This document shows, piece by piece, positions 14,805-24,804 of a stretch of DNA of 26,292 nucleotides. Source of the DNA: a virus. Where the stretch lies: IMG/VR virus record IMGVR_UViG_3300032087_001066, positions 1 to 26,292 of that record; one strand, given 5' to 3'. The position numbers and the translations under genes were made by a program. Each line of letters starts with the position of its first letter. Position 1 is the stretch's first letter. The notes beneath the pieces were generated by a model. It saw only the letters and a list, made by a program, of their open reading frames with translations. It was not told the DNA's origin and ran no database searches.

Positions 14805-15062
14805 ATGAAAGATCACGTAGAAGGAGCTAAACTGGCAGACAGTTACACAAAGGTGTGCATGAATGCCGTTGAGTACATGAATGCTATGGAAGAGTACAAC
14901 CCAGCACTTATGAATGCTGTGGGTAAATGGTTGAAAGACAACAACATAACGGTTGACAATCGTACTGGTACTCCTGTTAATGACCTAGCAAAAGAATTTG
15001 CAGCTTTACCTTTCACAACCGAGGACGATGAAAACGAACAACACCGAGCAGCTCACACTTAA
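14805..15062 (+). CDS. terS: Terminase small subunit (T7 gp18-like)
   Basis: The 85-residue product is close in size to T7 gp18 (89 aa). The segment YMNAMEEYNPALMNAVGKWL matches the T7 gp18 pattern DLSDHERRSPQLYNAINKLL, including the Asn-Ala-(V/I)-x-K-x-L helix, and is followed by a short Thr/Asp-rich tail and an acidic stretch. TerS rings bind the concatemer and help TerL start DNA packaging. AGGAG at 14791-14795 lies 9 nt before the ATG. In T7, terL follows closely after the spanin genes; here an HNH nuclease gene starts within the last codons of terS instead, and no spanins are present. Confidence 0.8.
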   Translation: MKDHVEGAKLADSYTKVCMNAVEYMNAMEEYNPALMNAVGKWLKDNNITVDNRTGTPVNDLAKEFAALPFTTEDDENEQHRAAHT

Positions 15063-15753
15063 TTTTGATAACGTAGATAATTACCGCAAAGGTAAACATT
15101 TAAATCAGAAGGCACTACAAACAGGAGCACCTAAAGGTACTTTTAGTCTTGGTGATCCTCATCCTGATGTAGAAGGTGTGTTCTTTGGTGAATGGAGGGG
15201 AACTTGGAATGTTAAGGAAAGATGGGTTGATTCGGAAAACAGACGACAACGTAATAGTATAGACCAAACAAAGTTACAAACTAAACAACCCAAAGGTACA
15301 TTTAGACAAGGCGACCCGCACCCTACAGTAGCTGGTTTCTTTTATATGTCATGGCGTAAAGATAGTTTATCACCTGAACGTTGGGCAGATAGAAGGAAGC
15401 TAGAAAGAAAAAACTTTACAATTAAACTATACCAAAAGACTGAAAAACGTATTGCTTATAATAAGCAGTGGAAAAAAGAAAAAGTTGGATGGCACGCTTA
15501 TTATGCAAACAAATATAGAGCACAATCAAAAAATGCTGAAGTGCCTTTGACTAAAGAACAAGAGAGTGAGATAAAACAAATTTACGCACACGCTGCTAGA
15601 GTTTCTAAAAAGTTACAAATGCGTTTTGAGGTTGATCATATAATACCCTTTGCTAAAGGAGGTAAACATCATCCTCTGAATCTACAAGTAGTACCGGGTC
15701 GTTGGAATCGTCGTAAGCATAATAGGCACTCCGAGGCATGGCAAGGGCTGTAA
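15028..15753 (+). CDS. HNH endonuclease with two N-terminal repeat modules, between terS and terL
   Basis: The chosen start at 15028 overlaps the end of terS by 35 nt; an earlier in-frame ATG at 14998 would overlap more. The 241-residue product has a C-terminal HNH domain: EVDHIIPFAKGGKHHPLNLQ with Asp203-His204, Asn218 in HPLNLQ, and the KHN motif at about 230-232. Upstream are two related 35-residue modules (about 34-68 and 87-121) that share PKGTF, GDPHP, a Trp and ERW...D, with 19 identical positions of 35. Between these and the nuclease is a basic helical linker. The modules look like DNA-recognition units of a homing-type nuclease, which is an inference. HNH proteins beside terminases aid packaging in cos phages, but T7-type phages normally have none here. 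Its end overlaps terL by 16 nt. Confidence 0.82.
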   Translation: MKTNNTEQLTLNFDNVDNYRKGKHLNQKALQTGAPKGTFSLGDPHPDVEGVFFGEWRGTWNVKERWVDSENRRQRNSIDQTKLQTKQPKGTFRQGDPHPTVAGFFYMSWRKDSLSPERWADRRKLERKNFTIKLYQKTEKRIAYNKQWKKEKVGWHAYYANKYRAQSKNAEVPLTKEQESEIKQIYAHAARVSKKLQMRFEVDHIIPFAKGGKHHPLNLQVVPGRWNRRKHNRHSEAWQGL

Positions 15754-17438
15754 AAAGCAAAGAAGTCTCAGTACCACCACAGTTAAAGAACTTTAAGAAC
15801 TTTGTCTGTTTGGTATGGAGGCACTTAAACCTGCCTGATCCTACACCCCTACAGTACGCTATATGTGACCACCTGCAATACGGTCCGAAGCGTAGTATTG
15901 TCATGGCGTTTCGTGGTTGTGGTAAGTCTTGGATAACAAGTGCTTATGTAGTTTGGGAACTGCTGATGGACCCGTCCAAGAACATACTTGTTGTATCCGC
16001 TAGTAAGGTTCGTGCCGATGAGTTCAGTACGTTCTGTCAACGCCTTATCAACGACATACCAATACTTCACCAACTAAAACCAACGGAAGACCAACGATTC
16101 AGTAAAGTATCCTTTGATGTTGGTCCAGCTCCTGCGTCACACGCACCGTCCGTTAAGTCACTTGGTATAACGTCACAGTTAACGGGTAGTCGTGCTGATC
16201 TGATAGTGTTGGACGATATAGAAGTCGTTAACAACTCCGCTACACAAGGCATGAGAGACAAGCTGTCGGAAGCCGTAAAGGAAACAGATGCTATCATTAA
16301 ACCACTGGACACCTCCAAGATCGTATTCCTTGGTACTCCTCAAACAGAAGAGAGTATCTATCAGAAGCTCCAAGAACGGGGGTACAAGGCGTTTATCATG
16401 CCGTCGGAATACCCAGACCCCTCTACGGTGGTAAACATCTATGGAGACGCTCTAGCACCCTTTATATCGGATAACACCACTGAGGATAACATAGGTAAGA
16501 CGACGGAACCACTACGGTTCACTGATATGGACCTAGAGGAACGTAAGCTAAGTTATGGTCGTAGTGGTTATTCCCTACAGTTCCTTCTTAACCCACGACT
16601 ATCTGACCAAGACAGATTCCCACTGAAGATTAACGATCTGGTACTTTACGACGTGGACGTTGATACCGCTCCTGAAAAGATACTGTGGTCAAGTGACCCT
16701 GAGAAAGCTGACAGATCGCTTCCCAACGTAGGCTTTAACGGTGACCGATACAAACGTCCAAGTAACGTCATTGGTGAAAACATACCGTACAGTGGTAGTG
16801 TGTTGTCCATTGACCCGTCTGGTCGTGGTGTTGATGAAACGGGATACGCTGTGGTTAAGATGCTTAACGGGTATTTGTACGTTCCTGAAGCGGGTGGTCT
16901 GAAGGGTGGATACGGGGAACAAACGTTAAAGGAACTCGTTGACATAGCCAAACGGAACAAGGTAAACAAAGTCGTAGTAGAGAGTAACTTTGGTGACGGT
17001 ATCTTTTCCGAGCTGATTAAACCTTTGTTTAGAACAACGTACCCAGTAACCCTTGAGGAAGTACGACACAGCAAACAAAAAGAACTACGTATCATTGATA
17101 CCCTTGAACCTGTACTTAACTCTCATAAGCTTATCATAGACCCTAGGGTTATCACTAACGACTACAACTCAGCCATGGCGTATCCAACTGAGAAACAAGC
17201 TTCCTATCAAATGATGTATCAACTGTCACGAATAACACGAGAACGTGGTAGTCTGTTAAAGGATGATAGACTGGATGCTTTGGCTATTGCTGTCGCCTAT
17301 TGGACTGAACAGATGGCTGCTGATGCTGATAGAAACATATCCGATAGGAAACAAGAACTACTACAGCAGGAGTTAACAAAGTTTACTGATAGCTTCTATA
17401 AACGTAGTGGTTCTAACAAAGCTCTTCTATGGAGTTAA
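15738..17438 (+). CDS. terL: Terminase large subunit, packaging ATPase-nuclease (T7 gp19-like)
   Basis: At 566 residues it matches T7 gp19 (586 aa) along its length. The ATPase half has Walker A AFRGCGKSW (about residues 57-65) and Walker B LIVLDDIE (about 154-161), with GITSQLTGSRAD just before and FLGTPQTE as the coupling motif. The nuclease half has SIDPSGRGVDETGYAVV (about 356-372), VVESNFGDGIF (about 414-424) and DDRLDALAIAVAYW (about 509-522), which supply the metal-binding acidic residues. It pumps DNA into the prohead and cuts concatemers. It is the last gene of the late module. The start at 15738 is preceded by GAGG at short spacing and overlaps the HNH gene. No defect is visible. 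Confidence 0.97.
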   Translation: MARAVKSKEVSVPPQLKNFKNFVCLVWRHLNLPDPTPLQYAICDHLQYGPKRSIVMAFRGCGKSWITSAYVVWELLMDPSKNILVVSASKVRADEFSTFCQRLINDIPILHQLKPTEDQRFSKVSFDVGPAPASHAPSVKSLGITSQLTGSRADLIVLDDIEVVNNSATQGMRDKLSEAVKETDAIIKPLDTSKIVFLGTPQTEESIYQKLQERGYKAFIMPSEYPDPSTVVNIYGDALAPFISDNTTEDNIGKTTEPLRFTDMDLEERKLSYGRSGYSLQFLLNPRLSDQDRFPLKINDLVLYDVDVDTAPEKILWSSDPEKADRSLPNVGFNGDRYKRPSNVIGENIPYSGSVLSIDPSGRGVDETGYAVVKMLNGYLYVPEAGGLKGGYGEQTLKELVDIAKRNKVNKVVVESNFGDGIFSELIKPLFRTTYPVTLEEVRHSKQKELRIIDTLEPVLNSHKLIIDPRVITNDYNSAMAYPTEKQASYQMMYQLSRITRERGSLLKDDRLDALAIAVAYWTEQMAADADRNISDRKQELLQQELTKFTDSFYKRSGSNKALLWS

Positions 17439-17908: not shown

Positions 17909-18130
17909 ATGATGAATAACGATCACCAAACAGACTCCTTTATGTTCGACCTAGATAACCTCATACGACGGTACAAACATGAGTTCGATCTGAATGACCA
18001 GTCAATAGTCGGTTGTTTGGAGTTTATGAAACTGACCGTTATGACCGATGCGGAAGTGCTGTTCGATCCAGAGGATATAGACGAAGACGACAACAACACC
18101 AAAGGCAACGATATAAGCCCGCATTTTTAA
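17909..18130 (+). CDS. Small acidic hypothetical protein, 73 aa
   Basis: The product has two ATG codons at its start (17909 and 17912) and reads as a compact soluble protein: FMFDLDNLIRRYKHEFDLND, then QSIVGCLEFMKLTVMTDAEV and a very acidic tail (FDPEDIDEDDNN). The middle resembles short phage proteins with a helix-turn-helix of the form F-(D/E)-L-(N/T)...I(V/I)G.LE..KL, whose function is unknown. The leader TATAAACACC before ATG lacks a Shine-Dalgarno sequence, like other unit-leading genes here. It stands alone between two non-coding blocks, so it could be the last late gene or the first early gene. Codon use looks like that of the neighbours. Confidence 0.62.
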   Translation: MMNNDHQTDSFMFDLDNLIRRYKHEFDLNDQSIVGCLEFMKLTVMTDAEVLFDPEDIDEDDNNTKGNDISPHF

Positions 18131-18218
18131 GGCAGTGTTAGGTTCGCGGATTAAGCTAGCGTTGTAAAATTGGTTAAAAAAATCTGAGCGGCTTATATAC
18201 GCTATGTATCCGTTCGTT

Positions 18219-18240
18219 TACCCCTTGGGTACCCGCTTGT
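18219..18240 (+). terminator. Weak hairpin with downstream T run
   Basis: TACCC (18219-18223) and GGGTA (18227-18231) form a five-pair hairpin with a three-base loop. The 8-nt palindrome GGGTACCC (18227-18234) overlaps it. A T-rich stretch (TTGTTTTTA) starts a few bases later. It could end transcription coming from the late module or the 73-aa gene. The stem is short and the T run is not adjacent, so confidence is low. Confidence 0.25.
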
Positions 18241-18314
18241 TTTTATAGTGCCAGCAGTGCCTTAGTTTATACAATTAGACATAATACATATTATGCGAAA
18301 TGGCTTTTGTTGAT

Positions 18315-18327
18315 TATCAACGATTTA
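18315..18327 (-). repeat. Inverted copy of TAAATCGTTGATA
   Basis: The minus strand here reads TAAATCGTTGATA, identical over 13 nt to the plus-strand copy at 18588-18600. The two copies flank the iteron array. A third partial copy, GTTGTAAATCGTT, is at 18685-18697. The core hexamer ATCGTT is the complement of the iteron core AACGAT, so one protein may bind all of them. Confidence 0.6.
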
Positions 18328-18490
18328 CGCAATTCCTTATGTGATTTATGACAAAGCTCGCTTTATTGCAACTGACTTGCATTAAGAAACACAACGCAAA
18401 AGACCAGAATAGGCGGTAAGATTGCGTCGGCTCTTATCGTTTTATCATGATGTGTTGATTCGTATTTTTTTTCGCTTTAGACGTCACCAA

Positions 18491-18530
18491 AACGATCATA
18501 AACGATCAGAAACGATCAAAAGCAATCATC
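18491..18530 (+). repeat. Iteron array, 10-nt period, core AACGATCA
   Basis: Three exact copies of AACGATCA begin at 18491, 18501 and 18511, each followed by two variable bases. A fourth degenerate unit (AGCAATCA) begins at 18521. The 10-nt spacing equals about one helical turn, so proteins bound to each unit would lie on the same face of the DNA. This is typical of replication iterons or of multimeric operators. It is too short in period and lacks spacers, so it is not a CRISPR array. Confidence 0.75.
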
Positions 18531-18587
18531 CAGCCTTTTCAGCTTGTAGACCGCATAAACACTGAACTTTTAAGTTTCCTTGTGTTG

Positions 18588-18600
18588 TAAATCGTTGATA
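18588..18600 (+). repeat. Plus-strand copy of TAAATCGTTGATA
   Basis: Exact 13-nt inverted partner of the site at 18315-18327. The preceding bases extend the match to the third site: GTTGTAAATCGTT occurs at 18584-18596 and again at 18685-18697, about 101 nt apart. The sites surround the iteron array and the DnaA-box-like site. Confidence 0.6.
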
Positions 18601-18661
18601 TTGTTACTACTTACAGAAAAAGTTGTCGCTTTAAATCTTATTTTTGGGTGTTTTTTGGCGT

Positions 18662-18670
18662 TGTGAATAA
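18662..18670 (-). promoter_or_regulatory. DnaA-box-like site
   Basis: The minus strand reads TTATTCACA, which fits the relaxed bacterial DnaA box TTWTNCACA. It lies next to T- and A-rich sequence and downstream of the iterons. Another match, TTTTCCACA, occurs at 19352-19360 inside a coding region. A single 9-mer can occur by chance; the neighbouring repeats and a DnaA-like protein encoded about 1.8 kb downstream make it worth noting. Confidence 0.35.
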
Positions 18671-18781
18671 CTTTTTTAAAAATAGTTGTAAATCGTTTGT
18701 ATTCAATACACTTACAAAATAAATTAAAGAGAAAAAGTTGAACAGTTGCACAATCTTATTGCACTATCCTTTAAAACGGAC

Positions 18782-18805
18782 TTGACACATAAATTACTAT
18801 AAAGG
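18782..18805 (+). promoter_or_regulatory. Candidate early promoter before the first small early gene
   Basis: TTGACA (18782-18787) is a perfect sigma-70-type -35 hexamer, but no good -10 lies 16-18 nt downstream. CTATAAAGG (18797-18805) instead resembles the core of T7/T3-class promoters (CTATAGGG, CTAAAGGG) and differs by one base from CTATATAGG at 17507-17515. Either element could start transcription about 40-60 nt before the ATG at 18844. The host enzyme must read the first genes, so a host-type promoter has to exist near here or further upstream. Confidence 0.3.
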
Positions 18806-18843
18806 CTCACATTATTATAAACTTATTAAAACCTATTAACATT

Positions 18844-20255: not shown

Positions 20256-20454
20256 GCTTTGCAAACAATGCGGTTTAGAACTGTACGGAATGGAAAGAGA
20301 AGGCGACATTTGTTTACGTTGTCTTCAGTCTATCCGATACCACGAAAACACTTATTCAACCATAGAAGGCTGTATTAGACAGTCCACTAATAACCCACTA
20401 AAAGAAACCGATGAGAAAGATACCAATGAGAAAGATCAAGGAAGCAGTTTGTAA
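20242..20454 (+). CDS. Zinc-ribbon protein, 70 aa
   Basis: The start at 20242 overlaps the lipoprotein gene by 14 nt; a longer frame from 20158 would run through the lipoprotein gene and its N-terminus looks unlike protein. The product begins MKESKLCKQCGLELYGMERE and continues GDICLRCLQS, giving a CxxC...CxxC pair (Cys 7, 10, 24, 27) with 13 residues between pairs, typical of a zinc ribbon. The remainder is polar, and the C-terminus is acidic and Lys/Glu/Asp-rich. Such ribbons bind nucleic acid or protein partners, for instance host RNA polymerase. The DnaA-like gene begins inside its 3' end, in another frame. Confidence 0.66.
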   Translation: MKESKLCKQCGLELYGMEREGDICLRCLQSIRYHENTYSTIEGCIRQSTNNPLKETDEKDTNEKDQGSSL

Positions 20455-20695
20455 AGTCTTTGATACTACTGAAAGAGACATTCACTCAAGAAACCGACAA
20501 GCACACCACGCACTGGCTCGACAGTTATGTTATTACTACGCCATGCCGGGCAGATCGTACGTGTCCGTAGCAGATTACTTCGATAGGCACCACGGTGCCG
20601 TTATGCACGGTGTCCGTAAGATCGAAGGACTAAGGAACGACGACTGGCTTATTAAGTCTTACGTGGTCGCAATCGACGAGGAACTGGAGAGATGA
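20411..20695 (+). CDS. Stand-alone DnaA domain IV-like DNA-binding protein, 94 aa
   Basis: The whole 94-residue protein corresponds to the C-terminal DNA-binding domain of bacterial DnaA. IKEAVCKVFDTTERDI begins the domain, ARQLCYYYAMPGRSYVSVAD follows where DnaA has ALAKELTNHSLPEIGD, and FDRHHGAVMHGVRKIEGLRN matches DnaA [20 protein letters not shown]. The AAA+ ATPase domain and domains I-II are absent. In the signature loop, Asp-His-Thr-Thr of E. coli is replaced by His-His-Gly-Ala (about residues 60-63), so base recognition probably differs. Two in-frame ATGs are possible (20411 and 20426). The protein may bind the phage's own repeats or mask host DnaA boxes. It overlaps the zinc-ribbon gene by 44 nt. 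Confidence 0.85.
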   Translation: MRKIPMRKIKEAVCKVFDTTERDIHSRNRQAHHALARQLCYYYAMPGRSYVSVADYFDRHHGAVMHGVRKIEGLRNDDWLIKSYVVAIDEELER

Positions 20696-22320: not shown

Positions 22321-22504
22321 AGACGAAGCTTATTCGCTTCACGAACTGGTTAACTTGGGGTATGACTGGTTCTGGAATCAAAACGAACTGACTGTCAACA
22401 GAAAGGGTGAGGTCGTCCGATCCGACACACCCAGAGTTCGTCCCAAGACGTGGTTTAATTACATTAACGAGGAAGGAGAAAGACTTACGGATAAATGTCC
22501 ATAG
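22304..22504 (+). CDS. Small hypothetical protein, 66 aa
   Basis: The ATG at 22304 gives a 66-residue product; a GTG at 22268 with AAGGAG upstream would add 12 residues and cannot be excluded. The protein begins MTEISEDEAYSLHELVNLGY and continues DWFWNQNELTVNRKGEVVRS, ending with a PKTWFNYINEEGERLTDKCP segment. It is rich in Trp, Tyr and acidic residues and may be a small beta-rich fold. No family recognised. Its stop overlaps the RNA polymerase start by 10 nt, so it is likely made with the polymerase. Confidence 0.58.
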   Translation: MTEISEDEAYSLHELVNLGYDWFWNQNELTVNRKGEVVRSDTPRVRPKTWFNYINEEGERLTDKCP

Positions 22505-24804
22505 AAAGTGAAATGAAAGCGTGGGGTAAAGCAACCTACCGCAAGTTCCAACAGTATTACCGACAAAACGAACGTGGTAGTGAGACGGCAAGCAGTAAAA
22601 GAATACTTGACCGAATGGCTCCGAAGCTTGCCCAACCTGTTGAAGACTTCTTCAATCGTTTTGTTCAGGACGACAGTCCGTCGATGCCAATATGGTTGAC
22701 GTTCATTTGTGATTTGCATCCACAGGTTGTCGCACACCTTGGATTGAAGGCAATGCTTAACTATGTTGTCAGTTGTAATAACTTTAATCGCTTGGCTTTT
22801 ATGGTAGGTCGGGAGTACGAGTCCATATGCCGTCGTCAGGTAGCGGAGGAAACGGTATCGAAGAATCAGATGTACGACGTCAAGCTGCAACGTGACCGTA
22901 ACCAACGAATAAGAAAGTTCTATAACGTAACCAAGAACCACAAGCGTTTCGAATGCTGGCAGAAAAGACACAAGATAGCTTTGGGAGCGTGGTTGTTGGG
23001 GGAGATCAGACGGCACACTGGACTTATTGAGATACGGACCGAAAGGATAGGGAAGAAACAACGACGGGTCGTAAACCTGACTGCTGAGTTCAGTGATTGG
23101 GTACGTCGTTTTGATGCTTGGCGAGAGGTTGCTGATCCGATACGCATGGCATTACCTCACCGTCCGAGAGAATGGGTGGACTATAATACTGGAGGATACG
23201 AAAGCTTCAAGGACACGTTTGTCAATAACCGTCCGAACGTAGACGACTACAAGTTCTTGGGTATGCAAAGAATGTACACGTCCGTAAACAACGTTCAACG
23301 AGTAGCTTGGCAGATAAACACGCAAGTGTTGGAAGTTGCACAACGGTTATGGGACAACGGACGACTGCCCAACTACGCAGAAGTACCCTTGCAACCGTAC
23401 CTAGAGAACGGACACGAACGACCAGAAGAGTTACGTGCGTGGAAGTTTAAGCAAGACAAGATACGACGCATTAACGAAGCGAACAGATCAAAGCGTCTGG
23501 TTCACATTAAATTACTGCATCTAGCCAAGAAGTACAGTGAGTGGGATAAGATTCATTTTCCGTGCAGTATAGATTATCGTGGTCGTTTGTACTATATGCC
23601 CAGTCATCTGCACCCACAAGGTAATGACCTGTCTAGAGCTTTGTTGTTGTTTAAGAGGGGAGAACAGATCATGGACGACAACGATCTTGAACGCTTACTT
23701 GTTCACGGTGCCAATTGTTGGGGCTTGAAGGGGAGCGTTGATGAGCGTATCGAATGGGTGAGGCAGCACGAAGGATGGATACTTGAAACAGCAGAAGACC
23801 CATACACTAACGAGTGGTGGACGGACGCGAGCGAACCGTTTGGATTTCTTGCGTTTTGTTTTGAGTATCAACGATTTACAAAAGAAGGATACGGTTACGT
23901 GTCACACTTTCCAGTGCGTATGGATTGTACAAACAATGGTATGCAGATACTACACTTGTTGTTACGTGACAAGGAACTCGCCCATCACTGCAACCTAGTA
24001 CCTGACCAACCACCGGGGGATATGTACCAGTACGTTGCTGACCTTGTGTACGAAAGACTAAAGGATCAATCAAAGGAGAACTACATAGCGTCCCAGTGGT
24101 TCAAGCACGGTGTCAGTCGTAAGTTGGCAAAGCTGGCTATCATGAACAAACCATACGGACAGTCGTACTTCCATGTCTTGCAGGGTTTTCTTTATGCGAT
24201 CGGAGACAATCATCCGTTTGAAGAGGGTGAACAGATTGACGCTATCAATTACCTAGCCAAACAGTTCAACGACATAGCACGTGAGGTCTTGGTGTCTCTC
24301 GGACGTGTTCACCAATTCCTTCGTGGGTGTGCTCATGCAATAGGGAACAAGGAAATGAAGTGGACAACACCCATCGGATTCAAGGTCATACAGAACATGA
24401 CGAAGACCAAGCTTGTACGTGTACAAAGTGTGGTTGAGGACGTAAAACTTGAGTTGTCGTACAACATTGATCTTGACGAAGTCGATCCAAGACAACAGAA
24501 GAAGTGTATCACTGCTAACTTCATACACGGTTTGGATGCCAGCGTCGTTCATCGAGTCGCACATTCCATGACATTTGACATGGGATTCGTACACGATTGT
24601 TTCATATCCCACGCTTCGAACGCACGAAAGGTTCATCAAAACGTACGAGAAACATACAAGGAATTTTTTGGTTCCATTGACTTGCTTAAAGAGTTCAGAT
24701 GCGAGTTACAGAACCACCACCCGACAGTAGAACTGCCCGAACTGCCTGAACTTGGTGACCTAGACGTTACCGCAATAGATCGAGCCATGTATCTGCTGTC
24801 TTAA
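22495..24804 (+). CDS. gp1: Phage single-subunit DNA-dependent RNA polymerase (T7 gp1-like)
   Basis: The 769-residue enzyme has all core features of T7 RNA polymerase (883 aa). IDYRGRLYYMPSHLHPQGND (about 358-377) contains the GR motif before the palm. Motif A RMDCTNNGMQ carries the catalytic Asp at about 477. Motif B has Arg-xxx-Lys with Lys at about 546 and Tyr at about 554 (KLAIMNKPYG), matching T7 Lys631 and Tyr639. Motif C FVHDCFISH carries the second catalytic Asp at about 701 after His. The shorter length is mainly a reduced N-terminal domain, as in several marine relatives. The enzyme should transcribe the later genes from phage promoters. The start at 22495 lacks a close ribosome-binding site and overlaps the previous ORF; ATG 22513 is an alternative. 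Confidence 0.97.
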   Translation: MSIESEMKAWGKATYRKFQQYYRQNERGSETASSKRILDRMAPKLAQPVEDFFNRFVQDDSPSMPIWLTFICDLHPQVVAHLGLKAMLNYVVSCNNFNRLAFMVGREYESICRRQVAEETVSKNQMYDVKLQRDRNQRIRKFYNVTKNHKRFECWQKRHKIALGAWLLGEIRRHTGLIEIRTERIGKKQRRVVNLTAEFSDWVRRFDAWREVADPIRMALPHRPREWVDYNTGGYESFKDTFVNNRPNVDDYKFLGMQRMYTSVNNVQRVAWQINTQVLEVAQRLWDNGRLPNYAEVPLQPYLENGHERPEELRAWKFKQDKIRRINEANRSKRLVHIKLLHLAKKYSEWDKIHFPCSIDYRGRLYYMPSHLHPQGNDLSRALLLFKRGEQIMDDNDLERLLVHGANCWGLKGSVDERIEWVRQHEGWILETAEDPYTNEWWTDASEPFGFLAFCFEYQRFTKEGYGYVSHFPVRMDCTNNGMQILHLLLRDKELAHHCNLVPDQPPGDMYQYVADLVYERLKDQSKENYIASQWFKHGVSRKLAKLAIMNKPYGQSYFHVLQGFLYAIGDNHPFEEGEQIDAINYLAKQFNDIAREVLVSLGRVHQFLRGCAHAIGNKEMKWTTPIGFKVIQNMTKTKLVRVQSVVEDVKLELSYNIDLDEVDPRQQKKCITANFIHGLDASVVHRVAHSMTFDMGFVHDCFISHASNARKVHQNVRETYKEFFGSIDLLKEFRCELQNHHPTVELPELPELGDLDVTAIDRAMYLLS

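Follow-up and report, generated by a model that had tools for sequence, protein, structure and literature searches.

A 10-bp repeat array just inside the predicted left terminal repeat of a T7-like phage clade resembles bacterial DeoR-type operators

Short repeats beside the ends of the phage T7 genome have been known since that genome was sequenced, and we know of no established or agreed function for its SRL repeats. In the open-access literature no paper was found on SRL function, nor on AACGATCA in phages. In T7 the sequence CCTAAAG recurs at a 13-bp pitch in the same place as the array described here, and phages ICP3 and HTVC019P carry phased arrays of 12-13 bp pitch at this place as well. 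In phages T3 and T7, packaging specificity depends on gp19 and on DNA close to the termini (PMC3276506). DeoR-type repressors act in bacterial sugar metabolism. Among bacterial operators, the motifs of the DeoR-family regulator RhaR, which are rhamnose operators, consist of two imperfect direct repeats with a periodicity of 10-11 bp (PMC3870299).

The stretch of DNA analysed here (the window, 26,292 nucleotides in full) is a 26-kb piece of a T7-like autographivirus from a marine phage family. Its genes that matter for what follows are:

14805-15062, plus strand: terminase small subunit TerS (phrog_891, E 3e-9)
15738-17438, plus strand: terminase large subunit TerL, T7 type
17909-18130, plus strand: conserved 73-aa ORF that follows terL and precedes the terminal repeat, placed like T7 gene 19.5
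20411-20695, plus strand: protein consisting only of DnaA domain IV (Bac_DnaA_C PF08299, E 3.4e-14)
22495-24804, plus strand: single-subunit RNA polymerase (RNAP), T7-type (PF00940)

A T7-type SSB and an endonuclease I are also encoded in the window. Because the fragment is permuted, the block that separates TerL from the early genes is the concatemer junction. A blastn search of the phage collection returned no isolated phage that shares this block. An HNH endonuclease ORF at 14998-15753 overlaps the end of the TerS gene and the start of the TerL gene; it was not seen at the TerS/TerL junction in the relatives searched and is a possible homing element.

The position of the genome ends was deduced from relatives. 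The contig ends of one linear relative, G019 (38,247 bases), are a 316-bp direct repeat whose copies are 97% identical, the left copy beginning ACGCTATATACGCGG and the right copy ending GTTGATATGTATTTTT. The contig of a second relative, L025, starts one base further in than the left end of G019. The two come from sibling samples and the G019 copies differ at eight bases, so the G019 ends could represent an assembly overlap. Carried over to the window, these ends predict the following:

18177-18194, plus strand: conserved left-end motif AAAATCTGARCGGCTT, immediately before the predicted left terminus
about 18195-18470, edges good to within a few bases: predicted direct terminal repeat, one copy in the permuted contig, placed by homology to the G019 repeat and the L025 start
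18473-18489, plus strand: conserved spacer CGCTTT..CGTCACC, from the repeat edge to the cassette

The resulting order of TerL, 73-aa ORF, predicted terminal repeat, array and early genes is that of T7, T3 and gh-1, and when the G019 repeat is mapped onto the window the array begins about 20 bp inside the left unique DNA. The motif AAAATCTGARCGGCTT, which also served as an anchor in the analysis, is nearly invariant among 38 block sequences from relatives. The longer sequence AAAAATCTGARCGGCTTACGCTATATACGCG (18177-18215 in the window) extends across the predicted left terminus and varies hardly at all within the clade; the terminase probably cuts here. In most relatives another sequence, TTTACACGAGTAAAG, occurs a single time in each copy of the terminal repeat and is absent from the rest of the genome (position 26793 in G010, 5624 in G025, and 133 and 38064 in G019); as a candidate promoter for the phage polymerase it was rejected, since it is single in each genome (per repeat copy) and missing from the window.

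The first-pass annotation had reported seven AACGAT hexamers, counted on both strands, clustered between 18319 and 18697, and the position and strand of each are exact. Across the whole block (18131-18843) seven copies compare with 0.59 expected, and none of 500 shuffles that preserve dinucleotide content reaches seven, so the claim of clustering above chance stands. As the hexamer was chosen post hoc, a fairer test admits every hexamer containing all four letters, and at least one of these reaches seven in 5 of the 500 shuffles. Equal density elsewhere had been named as grounds for discarding the cluster; counted over the entire window, AACGAT is mildly enriched (27 copies against 15.1 expected) and outside the block a 380-nt stretch holds three at most. 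The block is also AT-rich (34% GC against 41.5%). The seven sites are, however, not equivalent, and the cluster is a mixture rather than one array. The elements in which they lie are:

18319-18324, plus strand: AACGAT within the variable TTGATTATCAA element of the terminal repeat
18436-18441, minus strand: inverted half-site ATCGTT, lying before the predicted edge, within the terminal repeat (ATCGTTTCATATCGTTTTATCATGAT in relatives)
18490-18529, plus strand: core array AAACGATCAT AAACGATCAG AAACGATCAA plus degenerate AAGCAATCAT, 10-bp pitch
18584-18624, plus strand: 41-nt repeat copy 1, promoter-like TTGTAA-N17-TACTTA, containing AACGAT 18591
18685-18725, plus strand: 41-nt repeat copy 2, promoter-like TTGTAA-N17-CACTTA, containing AACGAT 18692

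The core consists of three exact AAACGATCAN units at 10-bp pitch (18490-18519), directly followed by the degenerate fourth unit, and the hexamers at 18491, 18501 and 18511 are members of this tandem array. The hexamers at 18591 and 18692 sit in the spacers of the duplicated element TTGTAA-N17-(T/C)ACTTA. In relatives the tandem 10-bp array is kept, and 18591 and 18692 are not kept as AACGAT. The inverted half-site at 18436 recurs in many relatives, across the predicted repeat edge from the array. In the place of a right-hand (SRR) set, across the predicted terminal repeat from the array, only single AACGAT sites were seen, at 17918 and 18107. A TTGACA near 18785 was considered as an ordinary sigma-70 promoter and rejected, since no correctly spaced -10 was found by eye and a scan gave no promoter excess.

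An exact scan for the two-unit sequence AAACGATCANAAACGATCA over 2.9 million IMG/VR viral contigs found the array in 29 of them, and all 29 encode relatives of the window's TerL, RNAP or 73-aa ORF, some as distant as 39-45% RNAP identity. The array has 2-5 units per phage in this clade, with four perfect units in the complete circular genome G025; degenerate units hold the 10-bp phase. An anchor sequence, TATTTTT..CGCTT...CGTC, precedes the cassette at a distance that is fixed in most members, and the distance from the array to the early genes varies among relatives. In G019 a 41-nt insertion (GTTGTTCGCTCCGCTCTCATCGTCATTGCATGACTCATCA, at about 333-372) separates the repeat edge from the array, and L076 has a similar one. 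For the most part the array lies about 60-270 bp away from the promoter-like elements and does not overlap them. One further relative, G016 (41,772 b), carries TerL and the 73-aa ORF twice, once at each end and in differing sequence, and its RNAP and SSB frames are broken; it is a chimeric or error-rich assembly.

The array thus resembles the T7 SRL/SRR repeats in being made of short direct repeats of constant pitch that begin shortly after the left repeat, ahead of the early promoters. It differs from T7 SRL in pitch (10 bp, or about 20 bp in an alternative cassette, versus 12-13 bp) and in number of units (2-5 versus about 12). It differs further in that its sequence is that of bacterial DeoR-type operators, which the phased arrays of T7, ICP3 and HTVC019P do not resemble, and in that cassettes are exchanged within the clade. 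Since phased arrays occur in T7-like phages without any likeness to DeoR operators, position alone could reflect a role in packaging.

The alternative cassette occupies the same anchor in other members of the clade, in which CCAAATATGGAA (or CCATATTTGG) is present twice, about 20 bp apart, without an AACGAT array; its repeated unit is TTCCAWATWTGGAA, recurring about every 20 bp. CArG-like palindromes CCAAATATGG or CCATATTTGG, spaced about 20 bp apart, lie inside the terminal repeat edge of L021, L023, L037, L066, L247 and others. Mapped onto protein trees, cassette type changes 6 times on the TerL tree (7.0 for shuffled labels), 4 times on that of TerS (5.4), 7 on that of RNAP (8.2) and 9 on that of the 73-aa ORF (9.5). 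No phage gene among those tested co-segregates with cassette type, and the early genes include none that is confined to a single cassette class. Because the number of tree changes is much like that of shuffled labels and there is no class-specific early gene, the cassettes appear to have been swapped by recombination and to be tied to none of the phage proteins tested. A bacterial regulator for the TTCCAWATWTGGAA cassette was also sought, in genome sets of 188 and 395 (no match in either) and 398 (one uninformative match), and that candidate was dropped.

These comparisons bear on the main rival to a host repressor as the reader of the array, namely recognition by the terminase. Here the array would serve as a landmark of the concatemer junction, as SRL may do in T7, and the terminase or proteins associated with it would use it to position the cut at the repeat edge some 18 bp off. 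The position of the array matches that of the phased arrays beside the terminal repeats of T7, ICP3 and HTVC019P, its distance to the repeat edge is constant in most members, inverted half-sites lie across that edge, and the involvement of gp19 and near-terminus DNA in T3/T7 packaging specificity (PMC3276506) fits as well. Against this, L231 and L236 have almost identical TerS proteins and yet carry different cassettes, and cassette type follows neither TerS nor TerL, which disfavours either protein as the cassette reader; the identity with DeoR operators would, moreover, be a coincidence. On balance a role in terminus processing seems rather doubtful.

The protein encoded downstream that resembles DnaA had been the obvious candidate for binding the hexamers, and the profile match confirms that it is a DnaA domain IV protein. 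The block has features in common with the DnaA-box arrays of bacterial origins, that is, phased short sites in AT-rich DNA with one true DnaA box nearby:

18662-18670, minus strand: DnaA box consensus TTATNCACA (TTATTCACA)

Unlike in such origins, however, the array unit is not a DnaA box (it is unlike TTATNCACA), and the array is independent of the gene. Among 27 relatives with enough sequence, 8 of the 15 with the array and 4 of the 12 with the palindromes encode the DnaA-like protein (Fisher p 0.44), so that protein without array and array without protein both occur. The latter is the case in the complete circular genome G025 and in G030, L019, L029, L082 and L088. In L082 and L088, TerL is 94-97% identical to that of the window and the array is present, but the gene for the DnaA-like protein is missing; the array phages without this gene show that the array does not require the protein. 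DnaA boxes (TTATNCACA in either orientation) are commoner in the block of phages that carry the protein (6 of 12) than in those that do not (1 of 15). This association, inseparable from relatedness, is weak once relatedness is considered: it has a consistent direction in independent pairs, which are too few for significance. Should the DnaA-like protein have a target in the block, the TTATTCACA box would be a better candidate than the AACGAT array. A DnaA reading of the array is thus largely refuted, and it is very improbable that the array is a replication origin or an operator for the phage's own DnaA domain IV protein. What the first-pass annotation had suggested, an origin or a multi-site operator recognized by one protein, survives in part. 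The origin has no support of its own and the DnaA-like protein as reader is contradicted, whereas the operator retains a 10-bp array that is conserved in the clade and matches a bacterial operator class.

It was a search across many bacteria that pointed to this class, not a prediction made from the phage. With each of 84,980 bacterial and archaeal species represented by a single genome (GTDB contigs), a scan for the two-unit motif found it in 81 stretches, about ten times the number estimated for uniform composition. The bacterial flanks carry the same 10-bp units, often as two opposed arrays, and extra units lie at 10-bp offsets in the phage and bacterial sets alike. From this flank pattern adjacency to a DeoR gene was predicted and then tested. 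Pfam HTH_DeoR plus DeoRC was found in six neighbours among the first ten proteins scanned. With a profile built from these six Pfam-confirmed neighbours, a DeoR-family ORF lies within 500 bp of the motif in 37 of the 81 bacterial loci (six of the 81 having supplied the profile); when positions in these loci are drawn at random, the mean is 11.6 and the maximum 22. The phage array has direct half-sites at the 10-11 bp periodicity of DeoR operators, and its half-site sequence is the one found at the bacterial loci beside DeoR-family ORFs. Like DeoR-family operators (for example those of RhaR in Rhizobiales) it contains the 9-mer AAACGATCA at a direct 10-bp pitch, and the two are also alike in having degenerate units (CAATCA, CGATCA) and, often, opposed arrays. 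The array differs from them in lying on a lytic phage genome and not beside a sugar operon or a DeoR gene, and its opposed half-sites diverge around the terminal-repeat edge where those of DeoR operators face each other.

A search of 12 clade records gave no match to HTH_DeoR at E<=1, so a candidate reader of this type would be encoded by the host. Together, the DeoR adjacency in bacteria, the repeat periodicity of RhaR motifs and the absence of HTH_DeoR from these phage records make a host-encoded DeoR-family repressor the best candidate reader. A phage protein too divergent for the searches, with a recognition specificity that shifts without visible change in its family tree, could read the array instead, given that the tests covered presence or absence and the trees of better conserved early proteins only. 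Such a reader seems unlikely, as none of the early genes is confined to phages with one kind of cassette and the 12 phage records yielded no DeoR-type HTH.

With the host repressor as the preferred reader, the element in the SRL position may be built as a host-type DeoR operator; we hold this tentatively, at a little under an even chance. The array is short and helically phased, and it sits ahead of the early genes, close to the inner edge of the predicted left terminal repeat; from the resemblance we infer that a host DeoR-type repressor would bind it on the left end of the phage DNA as this enters the cell. The bound repressor might then modulate the first transcription by host RNA polymerase, or it might be titrated as phage copies multiply, and in this way the outcome of infection would come to depend on host sugar metabolism. 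The pattern suggests that the phage DNA that enters first is read by a host protein. That this whole clade of lytic T7-like phages keeps an exchangeable operator for a host metabolic repressor in its first-entering DNA, with recombination replacing one cassette by another to match the regulators that different hosts possess, is a doubtful but not negligible extension; if it were true, the infection programme would sense or disarm host sugar regulation.

The end repeats of this clade can be matched to a known bacterial operator class and are naturally swapped between close relatives. This combination makes it testable whether the ends of T7-like genomes are read by regulators of the host, and whether lysis is thereby tied to host metabolism. 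The obvious guess, binding of the array by the DnaA-like phage protein, is corrected as well.

A hint of a host group comes from Opitutia, although as the host it was rejected, since arrays occur in only 4 of 41 genomes of the family and 1 of 188 of a class sample. Four related marine Opitutia genomes (G041-G044) each have 2-3 exact two-unit AAACGATCA arrays, including ones beside a DeoR gene and an H+-pyrophosphatase gene.
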